Origin: an uncultured Opitutia bacterium
GTDB taxonomy: Bacteria > Verrucomicrobiota > Verrucomicrobiia > Opitutales > Opitutaceae
NCBI GenBank assembly: GCA_903896015.1
Contig: CAITWF010000026.1
Coordinates: forward strand, 1-64,000
DNA: 64,000 nt
Direction: 5' to 3'
Below, piece after piece: positions 58,126 through 64,000 of this stretch (the first letter of the stretch is position 1; each line of letters opens with the position of its first letter). Under the pieces are notes generated by a model that was not told the DNA's origin, did not search any database, and saw only the letters and a program-made list of their open reading frames with translations. A program made the translations under genes and the position numbers.

Positions 58126-58854
58126 ATGATCGCTTCCACCTTCTTTGCCGCCTCGCTGCTCAGCGGAGGTTTCCTGTCCCCGACGGTATTGCTCATCCTC
58201 GTCTTCGTGATGATCCCGGTTTCGCTGTGGGCGCAGTTTCGCGTCTCCAGCACCTATAACAAGAATGCCGCGATTCCCTCGCGCGGGGGCATCACCGGCA
58301 AGGAAGCGGCCGAGGCCGTGATGAATCGAGCGGGCATCACCGATGTCACGATCGAAATCACGGACGGACACCTCACCGATCACTACGATCCGATCAATAA
58401 ACAGCTCGTGCTTTCGGCGGAGAACTACAACGGGACGAGCCTGGCGGCGCTCGGGGTGGCGGCGCACGAAGCGGGCCATGCGATTCAGCACAAGGTCGGT
58501 TACTCGATGCTGCACTTGAGAATGGCGCTCGTGCCGGCGACGAATTTTGTGTCGCGTGCGGTGCCGATCCTGATGCTGGCAGGATTCTTCCTGGCGCGCG
58601 GGCTGACGGGGATGTTTCTCGACATCGCGATCATCTGCTACGCGGTGATCACGCTGTTTCAGCTCGTGACGTTGCCGGTGGAATTCGATGCGAGCCGCCG
58701 GGCAAAAGTGCAGCTCGTCGAGCTGGGCATCCTCGATCGCGACGAAATGGGCGGAGTGGAGGAGACGCTCGACGCCGCGGCGCTCACCTACGTGGCGGCG
58801 TTTGTCAGTTCGCTGCTCTATCTGCTCTACTTGATCTCGGCGCGACGCGACTGA
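58126..58854 (+). CDS. YugP-type membrane zinc metallopeptidase
   Basis: 242 residues with membrane segments at the N-terminus (PTVLLILVFVMIPVSLWAQ), around 150-190 and at the end. The zinc site HEAGH is at 114-118 in VAAHEAGHAIQHK, with LPVEFDASRRAK downstream, where the third ligand Glu lies. This is the DUF2268-like YugP family, often next to chaperone or peptidase genes. Its substrates are unknown; membrane-protein turnover is plausible. It lies tail to tail with an M48 peptidase gene, 9 bp apart. Confidence 0.85.
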   Translation: MIASTFFAASLLSGGFLSPTVLLILVFVMIPVSLWAQFRVSSTYNKNAAIPSRGGITGKEAAEAVMNRAGITDVTIEITDGHLTDHYDPINKQLVLSAENYNGTSLAALGVAAHEAGHAIQHKVGYSMLHLRMALVPATNFVSRAVPILMLAGFFLARGLTGMFLDIAIICYAVITLFQLVTLPVEFDASRRAKVQLVELGILDRDEMGGVEETLDAAALTYVAAFVSSLLYLLYLISARRD

Positions 58855-58863
58855 GTCGGCGAA

Positions 58864-59685
58864 TTACTTGATGATCGTCGGGGGCGGTGCGGCAATGCTG
58901 TTCCGCTCACGCACCTTAAGGGCTTCCGGCATCAGGTCGCGCAGTTGCTGGATGCGCTCCGGGTTTGACGGGTGGGTGGAGAGAAAGCTCGACGTAGAGG
59001 CGCCCTGCGACTGCATCTCCTCGTCGAGATGTTCGAGGACTTTCACCCCTTCCTCGGGATCGTAGCCGGCCTTGGCCATATACATGATGCCGATGTGATC
59101 GGCTTCCTTTTCCTTGTTTCGATCGAAGGCGGCACCGGCTCCGGCAGCGCCGAGGCCGTAGGCGGACATGACGGCCTCGGTGCCGAGCAGTCCCGCCCCG
59201 GTGCCCAGCATGGCGATGCCGCCGATCAGTCCGCCCGTCTGCATTGCCAGCTGTTGCGAAAGGTTTTCGTTGATGTGCTTCGCGGTGACGTGCGCGATTT
59301 CGTGGCCGATGACCGAGGCGAGCTGGTCGTCGTTTTCGACAATTTTGAAGAGTCCCATGAAGACGCCTACTTTGCCGCCGGCCATGGCGAAGGCGTTGAT
59401 ATCGGGCGAATCGAAGAGCACGAACTCCCAATCCGCATCCGGCATCTGCCAATACGGCACGGCGTGCTGAATGCGTTCGCCGACGCGCTGCAGTTGCTCG
59501 TTGCGCGCCTTGTCGTTGGAGATGCGGGTGTGGGCCTTCATGTCATCGAAGGCGGCGATGCTCATCTTGGTCACTTCCTTGTCATCAACGAGGCTGAGGG
59601 CATGGCGGCCGGTGACCGGGACTTCGGAGCAGCCGGCGAGCAGCGCGGCAAACGTGGCAGCAATGCAAGCGGAGAGCATTTTCAT
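58864..59685 (-). CDS. M48 family metallopeptidase lipoprotein
   Basis: 273 residues from ATG 59685, giving a lipoprotein signal with lipobox LAGC (16-19). The catalytic motif HEIAH is at 128-132 in ASVIGHEIAHVTAKHINE, and the third zinc ligand Glu lies in NKEKEADHIGIMYMAKAGYD. The product ends with a proline-containing tail after STHPSNPERIQQLRDLMPEA. It resembles periplasmic quality-control proteases of the LoiP/BepA type, which act on outer-membrane proteins. No TPR domain like that of BepA is present. Confidence 0.9.
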   Translation of the reverse strand: MKMLSACIAATFAALLAGCSEVPVTGRHALSLVDDKEVTKMSIAAFDDMKAHTRISNDKARNEQLQRVGERIQHAVPYWQMPDADWEFVLFDSPDINAFAMAGGKVGVFMGLFKIVENDDQLASVIGHEIAHVTAKHINENLSQQLAMQTGGLIGGIAMLGTGAGLLGTEAVMSAYGLGAAGAGAAFDRNKEKEADHIGIMYMAKAGYDPEEGVKVLEHLDEEMQSQGASTSSFLSTHPSNPERIQQLRDLMPEALKVRERNSIAAPPPTIIK

Positions 59686-59960: not shown

Positions 59961-61670
59961 ATGGCTGAGCAAAACGATTCGAACATGGCCAAGAAGCGTC
60001 GCGTGATTCATTGGAACCCGGATGCTGATCGCGAGCCGGCAAAGTCGGCGTGGACGGCCAAGCGCATCGCGCTTTGGACAGTCGGTGGATTTTTTGGGCT
60101 GTTGTTCGCGGCGGGGATCGTCATCCGTGCGGCGAAGCTCGTGCTTGGTCCGGATATTTTCAAACCGCAGGCGGAGCTTGTCGCCGGTCAGGAGTCGGCG
60201 GCCGACGCCAACTCCGGCTACATCAGTGAGACGAAAGCGCAGTTTGCGCATGAGACCTCAGGGAAACAGCTCGTGGCGCTGCGCCGGCTTCCGACCGATC
60301 ATCCGCGGCAATTGTCGGCGCTCATCCTGCTGGAGAAAAATTTTCAGGACGCCGAGGCGTTGCTCCGCGGGCGCGAATTTTCCCGGGCGTTCGCTGCTTT
60401 CCAGTCCCTCGATCGCGACATCGATGCTTTTGTGAAAAATGTGAAGGCCCGTCAGGAAGCGCAGCAAGCCGACGGCGCCATTCAGGTTAAAATGAAAGAC
60501 CTCGAGGTTGCGCGCAGCCTCGCGCCCGGTGCGCTCGATGCCGCGATGAGTAACGCCGCTGAGGCGCACCGACTCCTGAGCGACGGCAATTTCGCCGAGG
60601 CGAAGGAAGTCTTCGATCGGGGATTCGGCGAGTTGAAGAAAGCGTCGGACGCCCTCGCGCGCCACGTGCAGGAAAATCTCGTCAAGGGCCAGCAGGCGCT
60701 CGCGAAGGGCCAGCGCGACGCCGCGAAGGATGCATTTAACGCTGCGCTCGAAAAGTCCCCCGGTAACGAGGATGCGATGCGCGGCCTCAAGCGCGCGGAA
60801 AACATTGATCGGGTATTCGCGCTTTTGCTCCAAGGCGACGAACTGGAGAAAAAGGCGCAATACGCTCAGGCCGCTGAATCCTACGGCAAGGCATTCACGC
60901 TCGATTCGATGTCGGCCATCGCACAGCAGGGGCAGGCGCGGGCGATGCGGCTCGAAAAGGAAACAAAATTCGAAGCGGCCTTTTCGGCGGCGCAGGCTGC
61001 CTTCAAGCGCCGCGAATGGGAGAAAGCGATCGCAGAGTGCCAAAACGCCCTCCGGGTCGATGCAAAACGCAGCGATGTCTCGGCCATGCTCAAGTCTGCG
61101 CGCGAAAACGCCCACGCCGACGCAGTAAAGAAATCTCTCGCCAAAGGCTATGCCTACGAGAACGAGCATCAGTGGAAGGAAGCGCGCGACGCCTACAACC
61201 AGACCCTCCAGCTTGAGCCCGATCAGCCTGATGCAAAGGAGGGCTACATCCGCGCCGGAACGATGATTCGCACGCTCCTCCAATACGAGCGCTACATCGC
61301 CGACGCCGAGCAATTTGCCGCGAAGGCCGAATTTCAGGCCGGGATTCGCGTCTTCAATCAGGCCATGTCGGTCAAGCCCGCCTATCTCGTGAACAACGAC
61401 AAAGTGCAGCAGCTTCACGAAATGCTGATGGCGCAAAACAAGCCCGTTGAGGTCACCTTCAAGTCCGACGGCAAGACTTGGTTTTCCATCGAAAATTATC
61501 GGCTCCCGAGCCAGTTCGAAACCAATACGATTAAAATGCTCCCGGGCGACTACGCGGTTATTGGCCGGCGCAAAGGCTATCAGGACGTGCACATTCTTCT
61601 ACAGGTGCGGAACGGCACGCCGCTGCAACCGGTGACGGTTGTCTGTAATTATCAGTCGAACGGACTCTGA
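59961..61670 (+). CDS. Membrane-anchored tetratricopeptide-like repeat protein
   Basis: 569 residues from ATG 59961, preceded by a long leader without a family match. Residues 30-60 contain one membrane helix (ALWTVGGFFGLLFAAGIVIR) after a basic cytoplasmic start, so the rest faces the periplasm. A helical repeat region follows, with TPR-like units: FSRAFAAFQSLDRDIDAFVK, GNFAEAKEVFDRGFGELKKA, GQRDAAKDAFNAALEKSPGN, REWEKAIAECQNALRVDAKR and HQWKEARDAYNQTLQLEPDQ. A PEGA-like beta end (VTFKSDGKTWFSIENYRLPS, then DYAVIGRRKGYQDVHILLQV) closes it. It starts an operon with two Gly-rich secreted proteins. Confidence 0.75.
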   Translation: MAEQNDSNMAKKRRVIHWNPDADREPAKSAWTAKRIALWTVGGFFGLLFAAGIVIRAAKLVLGPDIFKPQAELVAGQESAADANSGYISETKAQFAHETSGKQLVALRRLPTDHPRQLSALILLEKNFQDAEALLRGREFSRAFAAFQSLDRDIDAFVKNVKARQEAQQADGAIQVKMKDLEVARSLAPGALDAAMSNAAEAHRLLSDGNFAEAKEVFDRGFGELKKASDALARHVQENLVKGQQALAKGQRDAAKDAFNAALEKSPGNEDAMRGLKRAENIDRVFALLLQGDELEKKAQYAQAAESYGKAFTLDSMSAIAQQGQARAMRLEKETKFEAAFSAAQAAFKRREWEKAIAECQNALRVDAKRSDVSAMLKSARENAHADAVKKSLAKGYAYENEHQWKEARDAYNQTLQLEPDQPDAKEGYIRAGTMIRTLLQYERYIADAEQFAAKAEFQAGIRVFNQAMSVKPAYLVNNDKVQQLHEMLMAQNKPVEVTFKSDGKTWFSIENYRLPSQFETNTIKMLPGDYAVIGRRKGYQDVHILLQVRNGTPLQPVTVVCNYQSNGL

Positions 61671-61685
61671 ACTCCCTCAAACCCC

Positions 61686-62495
61686 ATGCGCTCGCGAATA
61701 TTTCTCCTGTGTTTTGCGTCGCTGCTGATCGCTTCGCTGCGCGCGCAAACGACATCGTCGGGTTCGGCTGCAAACGGCTCGCGCACGGCTGCGCGCGCGC
61801 CGGCGAAAGGTCCGTTACCCGATCCGGCGTTGCTCGACGGCTCGGCGCAGCCCGTGGAAAAACATCCGGACTACGGCATGCTCGGGGACTTCGAACTTCC
61901 CGGCGATGACAACGCGAAGAGCGGAAAAATGGGCGGCCAGCAAAACCCGGAACAGAAGGGAGGCGGAGGCGGCCAGCAGCAACAGAATCAATCTCAAAAC
62001 GGCGGCGGTGGCCAGATGGCGGGCCTTCCCGCCGGTTCCACGGGCGGTGGCGGTGCGCAATCGTCCACGCCGCAGATGCCCGGCGCGCAGCAGGGCGGGG
62101 GCGCCGCCGGCGGTGCGCAGCAAGGCGGCCAGCAATCCAACGCCCAGGGCGCGGGCGGCGCAGGTGCCGCGGGCGCGGCGGGCGATCCGAATGCGAAGGC
62201 GGACGGTATCCAAGTCGCCGGCCTCGATGGCGATTCCTCCGCGGCGGGCGCCGCCGGTGCAGGTGGCTCGGGCGACAATGTGCCCAAGCCCCAGCAAGTC
62301 GCGATCGGCGACAAGGCATCGCAAATCACGCCTGTAGCCAATGCTCCGGGGGTCGTTGGTCAGCAGGCGGCGGTGGCCAACAGCACCCAGCAGATGGAGT
62401 CGAAGATCGGCAAGGGTGCGGGAGCTGGACCTAGCGGGGGCAACGGTGGTGGCCGCGCGGTCGAAAAGGGGCGGACGATGCCTTCGGGCCTTTGA
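61686..62495 (+). CDS. Secreted Gly/Gln/Ala-rich low-complexity protein
   Basis: 269 residues with a signal peptide (MRSRIFLLCFASLLIASLRA). A short ordered part has GPLPDPALLDGSAQPVEKHP and YGMLGDFELPGDD. The rest is low complexity with GGQ, GGAQQGG and QQQ runs and ends GGGRAVEKGRTMPSGL. There is no membrane anchor or catalytic motif. It is 15 bp after the TPR-like gene, and the following gene begins within 10 bp, so all three are probably co-transcribed. It may be an assembled or intrinsically disordered surface component, but I recognise no family. Confidence 0.6.
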   Translation: MRSRIFLLCFASLLIASLRAQTTSSGSAANGSRTAARAPAKGPLPDPALLDGSAQPVEKHPDYGMLGDFELPGDDNAKSGKMGGQQNPEQKGGGGGQQQQNQSQNGGGGQMAGLPAGSTGGGGAQSSTPQMPGAQQGGGAAGGAQQGGQQSNAQGAGGAGAAGAAGDPNAKADGIQVAGLDGDSSAAGAAGAGGSGDNVPKPQQVAIGDKASQITPVANAPGVVGQQAAVANSTQQMESKIGKGAGAGPSGGNGGGRAVEKGRTMPSGL

Positions 62496-62503
62496 GTTTT
62501 TCG

Positions 62504-63547
62504 ATGCAACCGCTTCTGCTCTGCGTGAAAAATTTTCGCCGTTTCGCTTTTTGCCTACTCGCATTTGCTGCGGTCGTGATCGCGCGCGCGACCACGATGA
62601 TTTATCCGGTCGAAGCGATTGACGACCTGTGGAATCTGCCGGCGGACGATTTCAAAACGAAATATGCCGGCATCAACATCACCGGGCTCGGCCCGAGCGA
62701 CGAAGGCTGGTATGTACGCTATCGCCACGAAAACCTTACTTACCTCTTTGGTCCGCTCGCCGACAGCGAGGCTGCGCAGAAAAAGAAGTGGGATCTCGAA
62801 ACGGTGCGCGATGCGGCGATCCGCAACCGGCCTTCGCTGACCAGCAGCAAGGTCGACTACGTGAAATTCAATTACTCCGGGGTCTACGGCAAGGGTGGCG
62901 GCAATACGCCCTACAAAGGCAAGAAAGGCGATGGCTCCGGTGGCGGCGATGGCGACGACAAGAATGGCAGCGGCTCTGGCGGCGACCGCAAGGATGGCTC
63001 AGGCTCGGGCAAGGACGGTTCGGGCAAAGACGGCACCGGTTCAGGCGATGGTGACAGCTCCGGCAATGGCGACAAACTCGCGGGCGGCGACGGCACCGAT
63101 GGATCGGGCGGCGCTAATGGAGACGGCTCCGGCAACCAGTCGGGCAGTGGCAAAGACGGAAAAGGCGGAAAAGGTGGAAAGGATGGCCAGTCGGGTTCCG
63201 GCGACGGGTCGGGCGATGGCTCTGGCAATGACGATGGAGGAGTCGTGGGCGCCGGCAAAAACGGCGCACTGCAAAAAGTCGCTTCAGCCAAAGGCGGCGG
63301 CAGCAGCAATGGCAGTGGCGGTCAGGGCGGCCAGTCTGGCGGCCAAGGCGGTCAGGGTGGACAGCAGGGCGGCTCTCAGGGTGGCCAGTCCGGACAATCC
63401 GGCGGCGGCTCGCAAGGCGGTGGCAGTTCCTCTGGCGGGCAGGGCGGTCAGCCGGGCGGCGGCTCGCCCGGTGGAGGATCGTCGGGCGGCGGTGGCAACC
63501 CACTCCAGCTCATCGGCACGCTCCTGAAAATGATTTTGGGGATCTGA
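62504..63547 (+). CDS. Secreted protein with short ordered domain and Gly/Ser/Asp-rich tail
   Basis: 347 residues from ATG 62504 (a TTG at 62492 that overlaps the previous stop is possible). After a signal peptide (MQPLLLCVKNFRRFAFCLLA to ARA) an ordered part of about 100 residues reads MIYPVEAIDDLWNLPADDFK, GLGPSDEGWYVRYRHENLTY and VRDAAIRNRPSLTSSKVDYV. From about 125 the tail is almost entirely Gly, Ser, Asp, Lys and Gln, then ends in a hydrophobic segment NPLQLIGTLLKMILGI. That end could be a membrane- or partner-binding helix. It faces the partial vWA-like gene tail to tail. Confidence 0.6.
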   Translation: MQPLLLCVKNFRRFAFCLLAFAAVVIARATTMIYPVEAIDDLWNLPADDFKTKYAGINITGLGPSDEGWYVRYRHENLTYLFGPLADSEAAQKKKWDLETVRDAAIRNRPSLTSSKVDYVKFNYSGVYGKGGGNTPYKGKKGDGSGGGDGDDKNGSGSGGDRKDGSGSGKDGSGKDGTGSGDGDSSGNGDKLAGGDGTDGSGGANGDGSGNQSGSGKDGKGGKGGKDGQSGSGDGSGDGSGNDDGGVVGAGKNGALQKVASAKGGGSSNGSGGQGGQSGGQGGQGGQQGGSQGGQSGQSGGGSQGGGSSSGGQGGQPGGGSPGGGSSGGGGNPLQLIGTLLKMILGI

Positions 63548-63590
63548 TTTTGCTGAGGCGGCCGGCCTCGGAGCGAATGAGCCTTCCGCT

Positions 63591-64000
63591 CTACAAATCC
63601 TGAAGCGCTATGAAGGTGCCACCGTTGCGGTAGCAGATTTCGCGCATCAGATTCGAGTAGCGCAGGCCCGTGTTGCCCATCGAAAACGTGTAGCGGATCG
63701 TCGTGGGAAACGCGACGCAGTTGATGACGACCTTCCGGTTGCCACTCTCGTCGGCGGGGTTGTGCTGATCGACCCAGCGGATGACGTTATCGGCCGTGTC
63801 GCTCTCCGCATATTCGTCGCCGAACACGTAAACGCCGAGTTTCATGTTCGTGTTGTTCTCGTCGTAGAGCGCGGTGAAGACGCGGCGCAGACCCGGCACG
63901 GGGCTGCTGATCGACTCGGCGTTGTAGCGGCGCAGTGTGCGCTTGATATTGTCGCGGGTCTCCTTGGTGTCGGGCAGCCACCCCATCGCGCCGGCTCGGC
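63591..64000 (-). CDS. C-terminal part of a vWA-like domain protein (partial, runs off the window)
   Basis: The frame is open to the window edge; the only internal Met is at 63986, so the real start is beyond 64000. The visible part has GLRRVFTALYDENNTNMKLG, VYVFGDEYAESDTADNVIRW and KVVINCVAFPTTIRYTFSMG, then LMREICYRNGGTFIALQDL. The alternation of hydrophobic strands and helices and the V-F-G-D-E and G-G-T-F-I-A-L end resemble the second half of a von Willebrand factor A domain. The MIDAS D-x-S-x-S would be upstream, outside the window. It ends 43 bp from the Gly-rich protein gene, convergent with that operon. Confidence 0.55.
   Translation of the reverse strand, partial: RAGAMGWLPDTKETRDNIKRTLRRYNAESISSPVPGLRRVFTALYDENNTNMKLGVYVFGDEYAESDTADNVIRWVDQHNPADESGNRKVVINCVAFPTTIRYTFSMGNTGLRYSNLMREICYRNGGTFIALQDL

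Follow-up and report, generated by a model that had tools for sequence, protein, structure and literature searches.

The window analysed here, a stretch of 64,000 nucleotides from an uncultured Opitutia bacterium of the family Opitutaceae, comprises bases 1-64000 of the 111,759-base contig CAITWF010000026.1 (C26). Close to its end lie three genes, TPR, GLY1 and GLY2 (the trio), which face a gene for a von Willebrand factor A (vWA) protein. Since the contig continues past the window, the facing gene, cut at 64000, could be completed. The features are collected in Table 1; relatives are labelled by locus (L), genome (G), family (f) and genus (g).

The trio is a tightly packed operon, in which 15 bp separate the TPR stop from GLY1 and 8 bp the GLY1 stop from GLY2, in agreement with the first-pass annotation (15 and about 10 bp). 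The membrane-bound helical-repeat protein described there was likewise recovered, as the TPR protein matches Pfam TPR_2 (E 2e-10) and has a single hydrophobic stretch inside residues 36-62 by hydropathy. Alignment of 13 sequences (A7) showed a basic N-terminal peptide with an RRVIHWNP motif, followed by the hydrophobic stretch, the TPR repeats and a conserved C-terminal stretch; by the positive-inside rule the repeat part would lie on the periplasmic side. GLY1 and GLY2 each begin with a hydrophobic signal-like stretch, deduced from hydropathy and not from a signal-peptide program. Compared with the congener L034, the window differs at codon positions 1/2/3 by 61/48/147 bases in GLY1 and 69/53/178 in GLY2, and the third position diverges most in TPR, GLY1 and GLY2 alike. 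This excess indicates that the Gly-rich frames are coding and rules out spurious Gly-rich open reading frames (ORFs), so that the two exported Gly-rich proteins noticed earlier can be retained.

The gene converging on the trio is the last of a four-gene minus-strand operon, MOT-ACT-VWA1-VWA2, which lies mostly outside the window. The partial vWA-like gene of the first-pass annotation is therefore the 3' part of VWA2, recognised by its strand, its end at 63591 and its metal-ion-dependent adhesion site (MIDAS) motif, and the sequence beyond 64000 supplied the remainder. In the window's genome VWA2 matches Pfam VWA_2 below the cut-off (E 0.018 only); with E up to 0.1, VWA_3 was found in 21 of 27 VWA1 and VWA_2 in 23 of 25 VWA2 sequences (best 6.7e-4). 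The two genes are adjacent, and both proteins start with FSLAFLDCICCGFGA-type helices, with hydrophobic stretches at residues 15-33 in VWA1 and 12-30 in VWA2 (hydropathy).

The Asp of this helix is invariant (25/25 VWA2, 27/27 VWA1), as are Thr199 and Thr232 of MOT in 26 sequences. By our own reading, together with PMC12204202, the helix Asp and the MOT Thr pair appear to be equivalents of the TolR/ExbD Asp and the TolQ/ExbB Thr residues. The first Asp of the MIDAS is kept in 25/25 VWA2; all 27 VWA1 have Arg (17) or Glu (10) in its place. The SHLS motif is absent from the same 25 and 27 sequences. The window's genome contains seven MotA_ExbB and six ExbD matches. Five of the seven MotA_ExbB genes adjoin an ExbD gene, the exceptions being MOT and one on contig C98, and C26 carries no ExbD match. 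A MOT-type channel gene stands in the cluster in most untruncated loci. Searches of MOT and VWA2 against PDB sequences with phmmer gave nothing below E 0.25, TolQ chains appearing at E 1.4-1.5. VWA2 is predicted to be an inner-membrane motor subunit, and the suggestion that it is an adhesion gene was rejected because it carries the TolR-like helix with the invariant Asp. Besides the ordinary motor set, genome G008 carries a second one that has diverged (L070:6394-11036; channel, VWA1-like and VWA2-like).

Gene order and co-occurrence among relatives

Gene order was compared in 80 named VWA2 loci, the best 80 of 305, which overlap with the family genomes described below. GLY2 was present in the fetched stretch of 36 of them and convergent with VWA2 in every case, the gap being shorter than 300 bp in 26 loci and 1.4-5.2 kb in the other 10. 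All seven genes were found in 27 of the 80 loci, always in identical order, and on this recurrence a chance arrangement was rejected. A further 29 loci contain no GLY2 within downstream sequence of 2.5 kb or more; the remaining 15 end sooner. The VWA2 tree, with 32 rows of which 30 are labelled, requires at least four changes of the linked state, which means that trio and motor have become linked or separated on several occasions. In f27 (G213) and in L235, from a metagenome-assembled genome (MAG) labelled Deltaproteobacteria, the motor genes have a same-strand TPR gene upstream of them, so that the TPR-motor link is broader than the family. In the G213 locus (L154:607-5001) this TPR is fused behind a kinase-like N-terminal region, and the protein encoded after it shows PEGA-like repeats as well as a formylglycine-generating-enzyme-like domain (both by eye). 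L203, a contig in a MAG labelled Rhodanobacteraceae, encodes a VWA2 75% identical to that of the window and is probably mis-binned Opitutaceae DNA.

Co-occurrence was studied with profile searches for VWA2 and the GLY2 N-domain in one draw of 100 Opitutaceae genomes. VWA2 was found in 35 and the GLY2 N-domain in 33; 32 genomes had both, three VWA2 only, one GLY2 only (G091, 75% complete) and 64 neither. Among the genomes at least 90% complete, the carriers of the two markers were the same 28. Genera g7, g8 and g37 include carriers and non-carriers that are concordant for both markers, and g30 and g32 contain one discordant, less complete genome each. The operons are adjacent in 18 of the 32 carriers of both and not adjacent in 14, where they lie on different contigs or are separated by 60 kb (G030), 0.58 Mb (G013) or about 2 Mb (G048, one contig). 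In these 14 loci (L083-L096) TPR is always near GLY2, the trio being kept together: between the two lies a gene that the profile identifies as GLY1 in eight loci, an unlabelled ORF of 12-25% Gly in five (L088, L089, L091, L093 and L094), and in L087 a gene hidden by overlong ORFs.

A second draw covered 288 genomes of the phylum, of which 18 had the GLY2 N-domain, 19 VWA2, 17 both and 268 neither. The single carriers are G197 for GLY2, and G213 and G148 for VWA2, the G148 match (E 2.5e-4, on a coiled-coil stretch) being probably due to chance. In the 10 carriers of both outside the family the operons are never adjacent, being on other contigs or at distances of 0.3 Mb (G254) and 0.8 Mb (G267). 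The TPR profile at E up to 1e-20 was matched in 14 genomes of this draw, 12 with both markers, and G197 and G213 with one. G197, a 1.7-Mb genome, contains the trio (L140:4294-7198) without a detected motor; its TPR gene is in two pieces and its GLY2 lacks the C-terminal stretch, which fits a remnant, and this trio is perhaps decaying.

Domains and termini of GLY1 and GLY2

The N-domain of GLY2 has 21 columns invariant across 16 sequences. Its best AlphaFold2 (AF2) model reached a predicted local distance difference test (pLDDT) score of 93.1, the remaining four of five models scoring 81-86, and the ordered domain and hydrophobic end ascribed to GLY2 in the first pass are borne out by this model and by the amphipathic C-terminal stretch. 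Profile A8 had no match among PDB sequences, the best Foldseek hit had an E of only 1.6 with no known fold recognised, and the VIA structure comparison gave no fold match, its best result being AcrD with Z 3.5 and a root-mean-square deviation (rmsd) of 2.2 over 54 residues. These blank searches do not show the fold to be new.

The low-complexity tail that follows is mostly Gly-rich, and Ser-rich in L060, L061 and L063. Pfam detected thrombospondin-3 repeats in the linker of three of 16 relatives. In the GLY2 proteins of L035, L039, L042, L046, L048 and L143, repeats of the DxDGDGIPN type (thrombospondin-3-like) replace part of the Gly-rich stretch. The tail is present in 25 of the 33 family genomes with the N-domain; in the other eight, GLY2 has 126-174 residues as listed and keeps the N-domain without the tail or amphipathic end, and the gene beside it is GLY1 or GLY1-like, with 12-25% Gly. 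The Gly-rich tails reported at first are thus a feature of most homologues in the family, not of all.

In more distant families a comparable amphipathic end, after linkers that are not Gly-rich, was seen by eye in three of four f2 and both f4 proteins, and was missing in L140. In four of five f22 proteins a linker rich in Pro, Glu or Ser leads, by eye, to a terminal transmembrane (TM)-like stretch; the contig end truncates the fifth. These f22 loci (L134-L137, L142) encode GLY2-domain proteins with long non-Gly linkers near 300-residue TM proteins (such as MGKALKTFIILNL), with no adjoining TPR gene, and thus show the same domain in a different neighbourhood. GLY1 has a conserved block near its start (PDPALLDG; PDPxxxDG-like) and a conserved C-terminus ending in VEKGRTMPSGL (alignment A2, 14 sequences); all four f2 proteins have both blocks, and the two f4 proteins have the first.

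The Hsp70-like protein and neighbouring genes

The AF2 model of ACT was built from 30 aligned relatives and had a pLDDT of 88.9. Up to about residue 351 the model matches Hsp70 nucleotide-binding domains (6nhk: Z 33.6, rmsd 2.6, 338 residues aligned; best Foldseek E 4.5e-19), and no member among the 30 matched Pfam HSP70 at E up to 0.5. Residues past about 375 are hardly covered by fold matches; the C-terminal beta-rich part looked FHA-like by eye only. At E 1e-3 ACT was found in 11 of the 288 phylum genomes, G224 (7e-4) being doubtful. The cytoplasmic WNP motif of TPR was considered as a docking peptide for ACT, since f1 and f4 have both and in f2 neither was seen; the idea was dropped, since the motif tracks ACT only partly.

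An M48 metallopeptidase gene lies divergent from TPR, and it does so in 27 of 38 TPR loci (two are obscured by overlong ORFs, seven are without it and two are cut). With a search model consisting of one sequence, it did not turn up next to TPR in the six loci of f2 and f4 or in L095. The gene stays by the trio even where the trio sits away from the motor, that is, it tracks the trio and not the motor, and M48 is possibly an eighth member of the set. A gene resembling the neighbouring one for a Zn_peptidase_2 protein was noticed by eye also at L034, L037, L039 and L098.

Two genes are divergent from the motor operon, one for a glycine-zipper protein (Pfam YMGG-like; C26 68288-69811, L002:9289-10812) and a second, small one that is lipoprotein-like. 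The protein encoded at C26 76938-78410 (L002:17939-19411), some 9 kb away from the motor, is by eye TIR-like and has a membrane segment.

Table 1. Features of the two operons and their neighbours on contig C26 (window, bases 1-64000)
Feature	Position	Strand	Description
Zn_peptidase_2 protein	58126-58854	+	near the M48 gene and TPR
M48 metallopeptidase	58864-59685	-	lipoprotein-like N-terminus; PF01435, E 5.8e-39
TPR	59961-61670	+	569 aa; start at conserved ATG 59961
GLY1	61686-62495	+	269 aa, 23% Gly
GLY2	62504-63547	+	347 aa, 29% Gly; start at ATG 62504
GLY2 N-domain	62591-62881	+	residues 30-126; profile A8
GLY2 Gly-rich linker	62894-63496	+	alignment A1; length varies among relatives
GLY2 C-terminal amphipathic stretch	63497-63544	+	NPLQLIGTLLKMILGI; alignment A1, hydrophobic moments
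VWA2	63591-64604 (in window 63591-64000, 3' part)	-	337 aa; N-terminal FSLAFLDCICCGFGA helix, MIDAS DTSGSM
VWA1	64601-65668	-	Pfam VWA_3, E 1.8e-8
ACT	65681-67156	-	Hsp70-type fold (AF2)
MOT	67168-68025	-	Pfam MotA_ExbB, E 2.4e-13

Interpretation of the two-operon system

The two-operon system is real and conserved, and is supported by gene order, co-occurrence, invariant residues and predicted folds. The co-inheritance of the trio with a predicted proton-driven vWA motor suggests that TPR, GLY1 and GLY2 are probably the envelope partners of this motor. Several observations weigh against this assignment. Three family genomes (G032, G033 and G036, 80-86% complete) have VWA2 without GLY2, and the second motor set of G008 has no adjoining GLY2. 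In 18 of the 32 family genomes the co-occurrence is trivial because the operons are adjacent, and the Fisher p values of 1.4e-21 (family) and 2.7e-24 are inflated by the relatedness of the genomes. Five f22 genomes have the motor and the GLY2 N-domain with no TPR match at E 1e-20. The GLY2 tail and C-terminal stretch cannot be essential to the core act, as they are absent in eight of 33 family genomes. No ACT was detected in the motor loci of f2, and in those of f22 it scored only 13-25 bits; f27 (L154) and L235 have ACT without WNP, and the WNP letters are missing in L095 and L096.

On balance, the genes probably encode a proton-driven force transducer that spans the envelope and has its own periplasmic coupling module, as judged from sequences and models. 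The rotation, force transfer, protein contacts, membrane sides and cellular function that we infer would be as follows. Five MOT channel subunits would surround a VWA1-VWA2 dimer, which the proton flow would turn, and the vWA heads in the periplasm, of which VWA2 has the metal-site motif and VWA1 lacks it, would hand the force to TPR, GLY1 and GLY2. TPR could serve as the inner-membrane scaffold. GLY2, where the tail is present, may be a flexible leash whose N-domain binds the scaffold or the motor and whose end seats on a membrane, and GLY1 may be another flexible linker, docking through conserved motifs close to its two ends. The Hsp70-like ACT might be a cytoplasmic regulator or assembly factor.

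A more specific version, in which a rotary motor with two different vWA heads winds or pulls the disordered Gly-rich leashes and thereby moves the outer membrane or an envelope cargo, we hold to be unlikely. One end of GLY1 and GLY2 would then be held by the TPR scaffold and by the vWA head that has the metal site, the other end by a membrane, and the linker would reside in separate exported proteins instead of in an arm like that of TolA or TonB.

The first-pass annotation had described the Gly-rich proteins as surface or matrix components, and a stand-alone structure of this kind, built on a TPR scaffold from secreted, disordered Gly-rich proteins, would account for two exported Gly-rich proteins and for the thrombospondin-3 repeats of some GLY2 proteins. 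It is made improbable by the co-occurrence with an inner-membrane motor even where the operons are not adjacent, and by the loss of the GLY2 tail in genomes that keep the N-domain. The amphipathic end of GLY2 and the TM-like end of most f22 relatives also speak against it, and because of these ends a membrane-tethered periplasmic role for GLY2 fits better. What survives of the undescribed envelope structure once proposed is a conserved envelope gene set for which no description was found; the surface or matrix part of that proposal was not supported. The position of M48, retained beside TPR even with the trio away from the motor, would instead point to a system of outer-membrane assembly or quality control with the lipoprotein-like protease at its centre and the motor as its energy source. 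This is quite unlikely, since the protease was not found in the f2, f4 and L095 loci mentioned above, and a shared promoter region could explain its retention.

Two other explanations concern the motor itself. A phage-defence motor like Zorya, in which the channel and a periplasmic axle would signal to a cytoplasmic effector (here the Hsp70-like ACT), would agree with the presence of carriers and non-carriers inside one genus and with a weak ZorA similarity of MOT (E 6e-5). It is very doubtful, because none of the seven proteins scanned matched ZorB, ZorC, ZorD or ZorE and the putative effector is the protein not seen in f2 motor loci; moreover, Zorya is not known to have co-conserved exported proteins. 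Most improbable is a vWA/TPR set of the Bat (aerotolerance) type with no motor. A membrane vWA pair, a TPR protein and a weak BatC_Lepto match of the latter (E 0.0059) are in its favour, whereas the MotA_ExbB gene and the Asp-bearing helix are present and no MoxR ATPase, DUF58 or BatD was among the cluster genes scanned.

Energised motors of the 5:2 type work on such targets as the outer membrane, flagella, gliding adhesins and TonB receptors. For the vWA-headed motor class, the co-inherited partner operon names proteins to delete, tag and pull down, and the GLY2 N-domain adds a small, conserved domain that had no structural match in the searches. Isolate-named records with the motor are Pelagicoccus mobilis KCTC 13126, Pelagicoccus SDUM812002 and SDUM812005, as well as DG1235 and Puniceicoccaceae bacterium K14.

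Comparison with known systems

With the 5:2 motors of Tol-Pal, Ton and MotAB the system shares the MotA/TolQ/ExbB channel family, the invariant Thr pair and the Asp-bearing partner helix; unlike in these, the partner heads are vWA domains, and no TolR, TolA/TonB, TolB or Pal was among the cluster genes scanned. The channel superfamily and a patchy distribution are in common with Zorya. The Bat operon likewise has vWA and TPR proteins, and differs from the set described here in that the latter includes a channel gene.

The closest relationship is with the vWA-headed "TPH-vWA" class of 5:2 motors, proposed in 2025 from genomes and structure models (PMC12204202, Mol Biol Evol). In section 8 of that paper, the function of the first vWA family of this class is called unknown and none is stated for the second. 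The first family, TonB/TolA-like, shares with our set the vWA and tolQ-like genes and, in PVC (Planctomycetes-Verrucomicrobia-Chlamydiae) bacteria, a TPR gene (PMC12204202, Fig. 4a,b legend). According to the same source, many of its members have the SHLS motif and adjoin tolR-like genes, whereas the set here has neither SHLS nor an ExbD match on its contig.

The second family is found mainly in Proteobacteria and Verrucomicrobia and stands beside tolQ-like genes without tolR, mostly as heterologous pairs with a TolR-like Asp helix (PMC12204202, section 8 and Fig. 4c,d legend). Section 8 names no Hsp70-like, TPR or Gly-rich partner for it, unlike the set here. A published account of such a partner set was not found in the PubMed Central literature either, which was partially covered with preprints excluded, nor was one of an envelope module inherited alongside a vWA-headed motor of this lately proposed class. 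Common to both are the tolQ-like gene, the adjoining heterologous pair of TM-anchored vWA proteins and the helix Asp, and neither has tolR/exbD in the cluster or the SHLS motif, according to PMC12204202. On these described features MOT-VWA1-VWA2 fits the TPH-vWA class.

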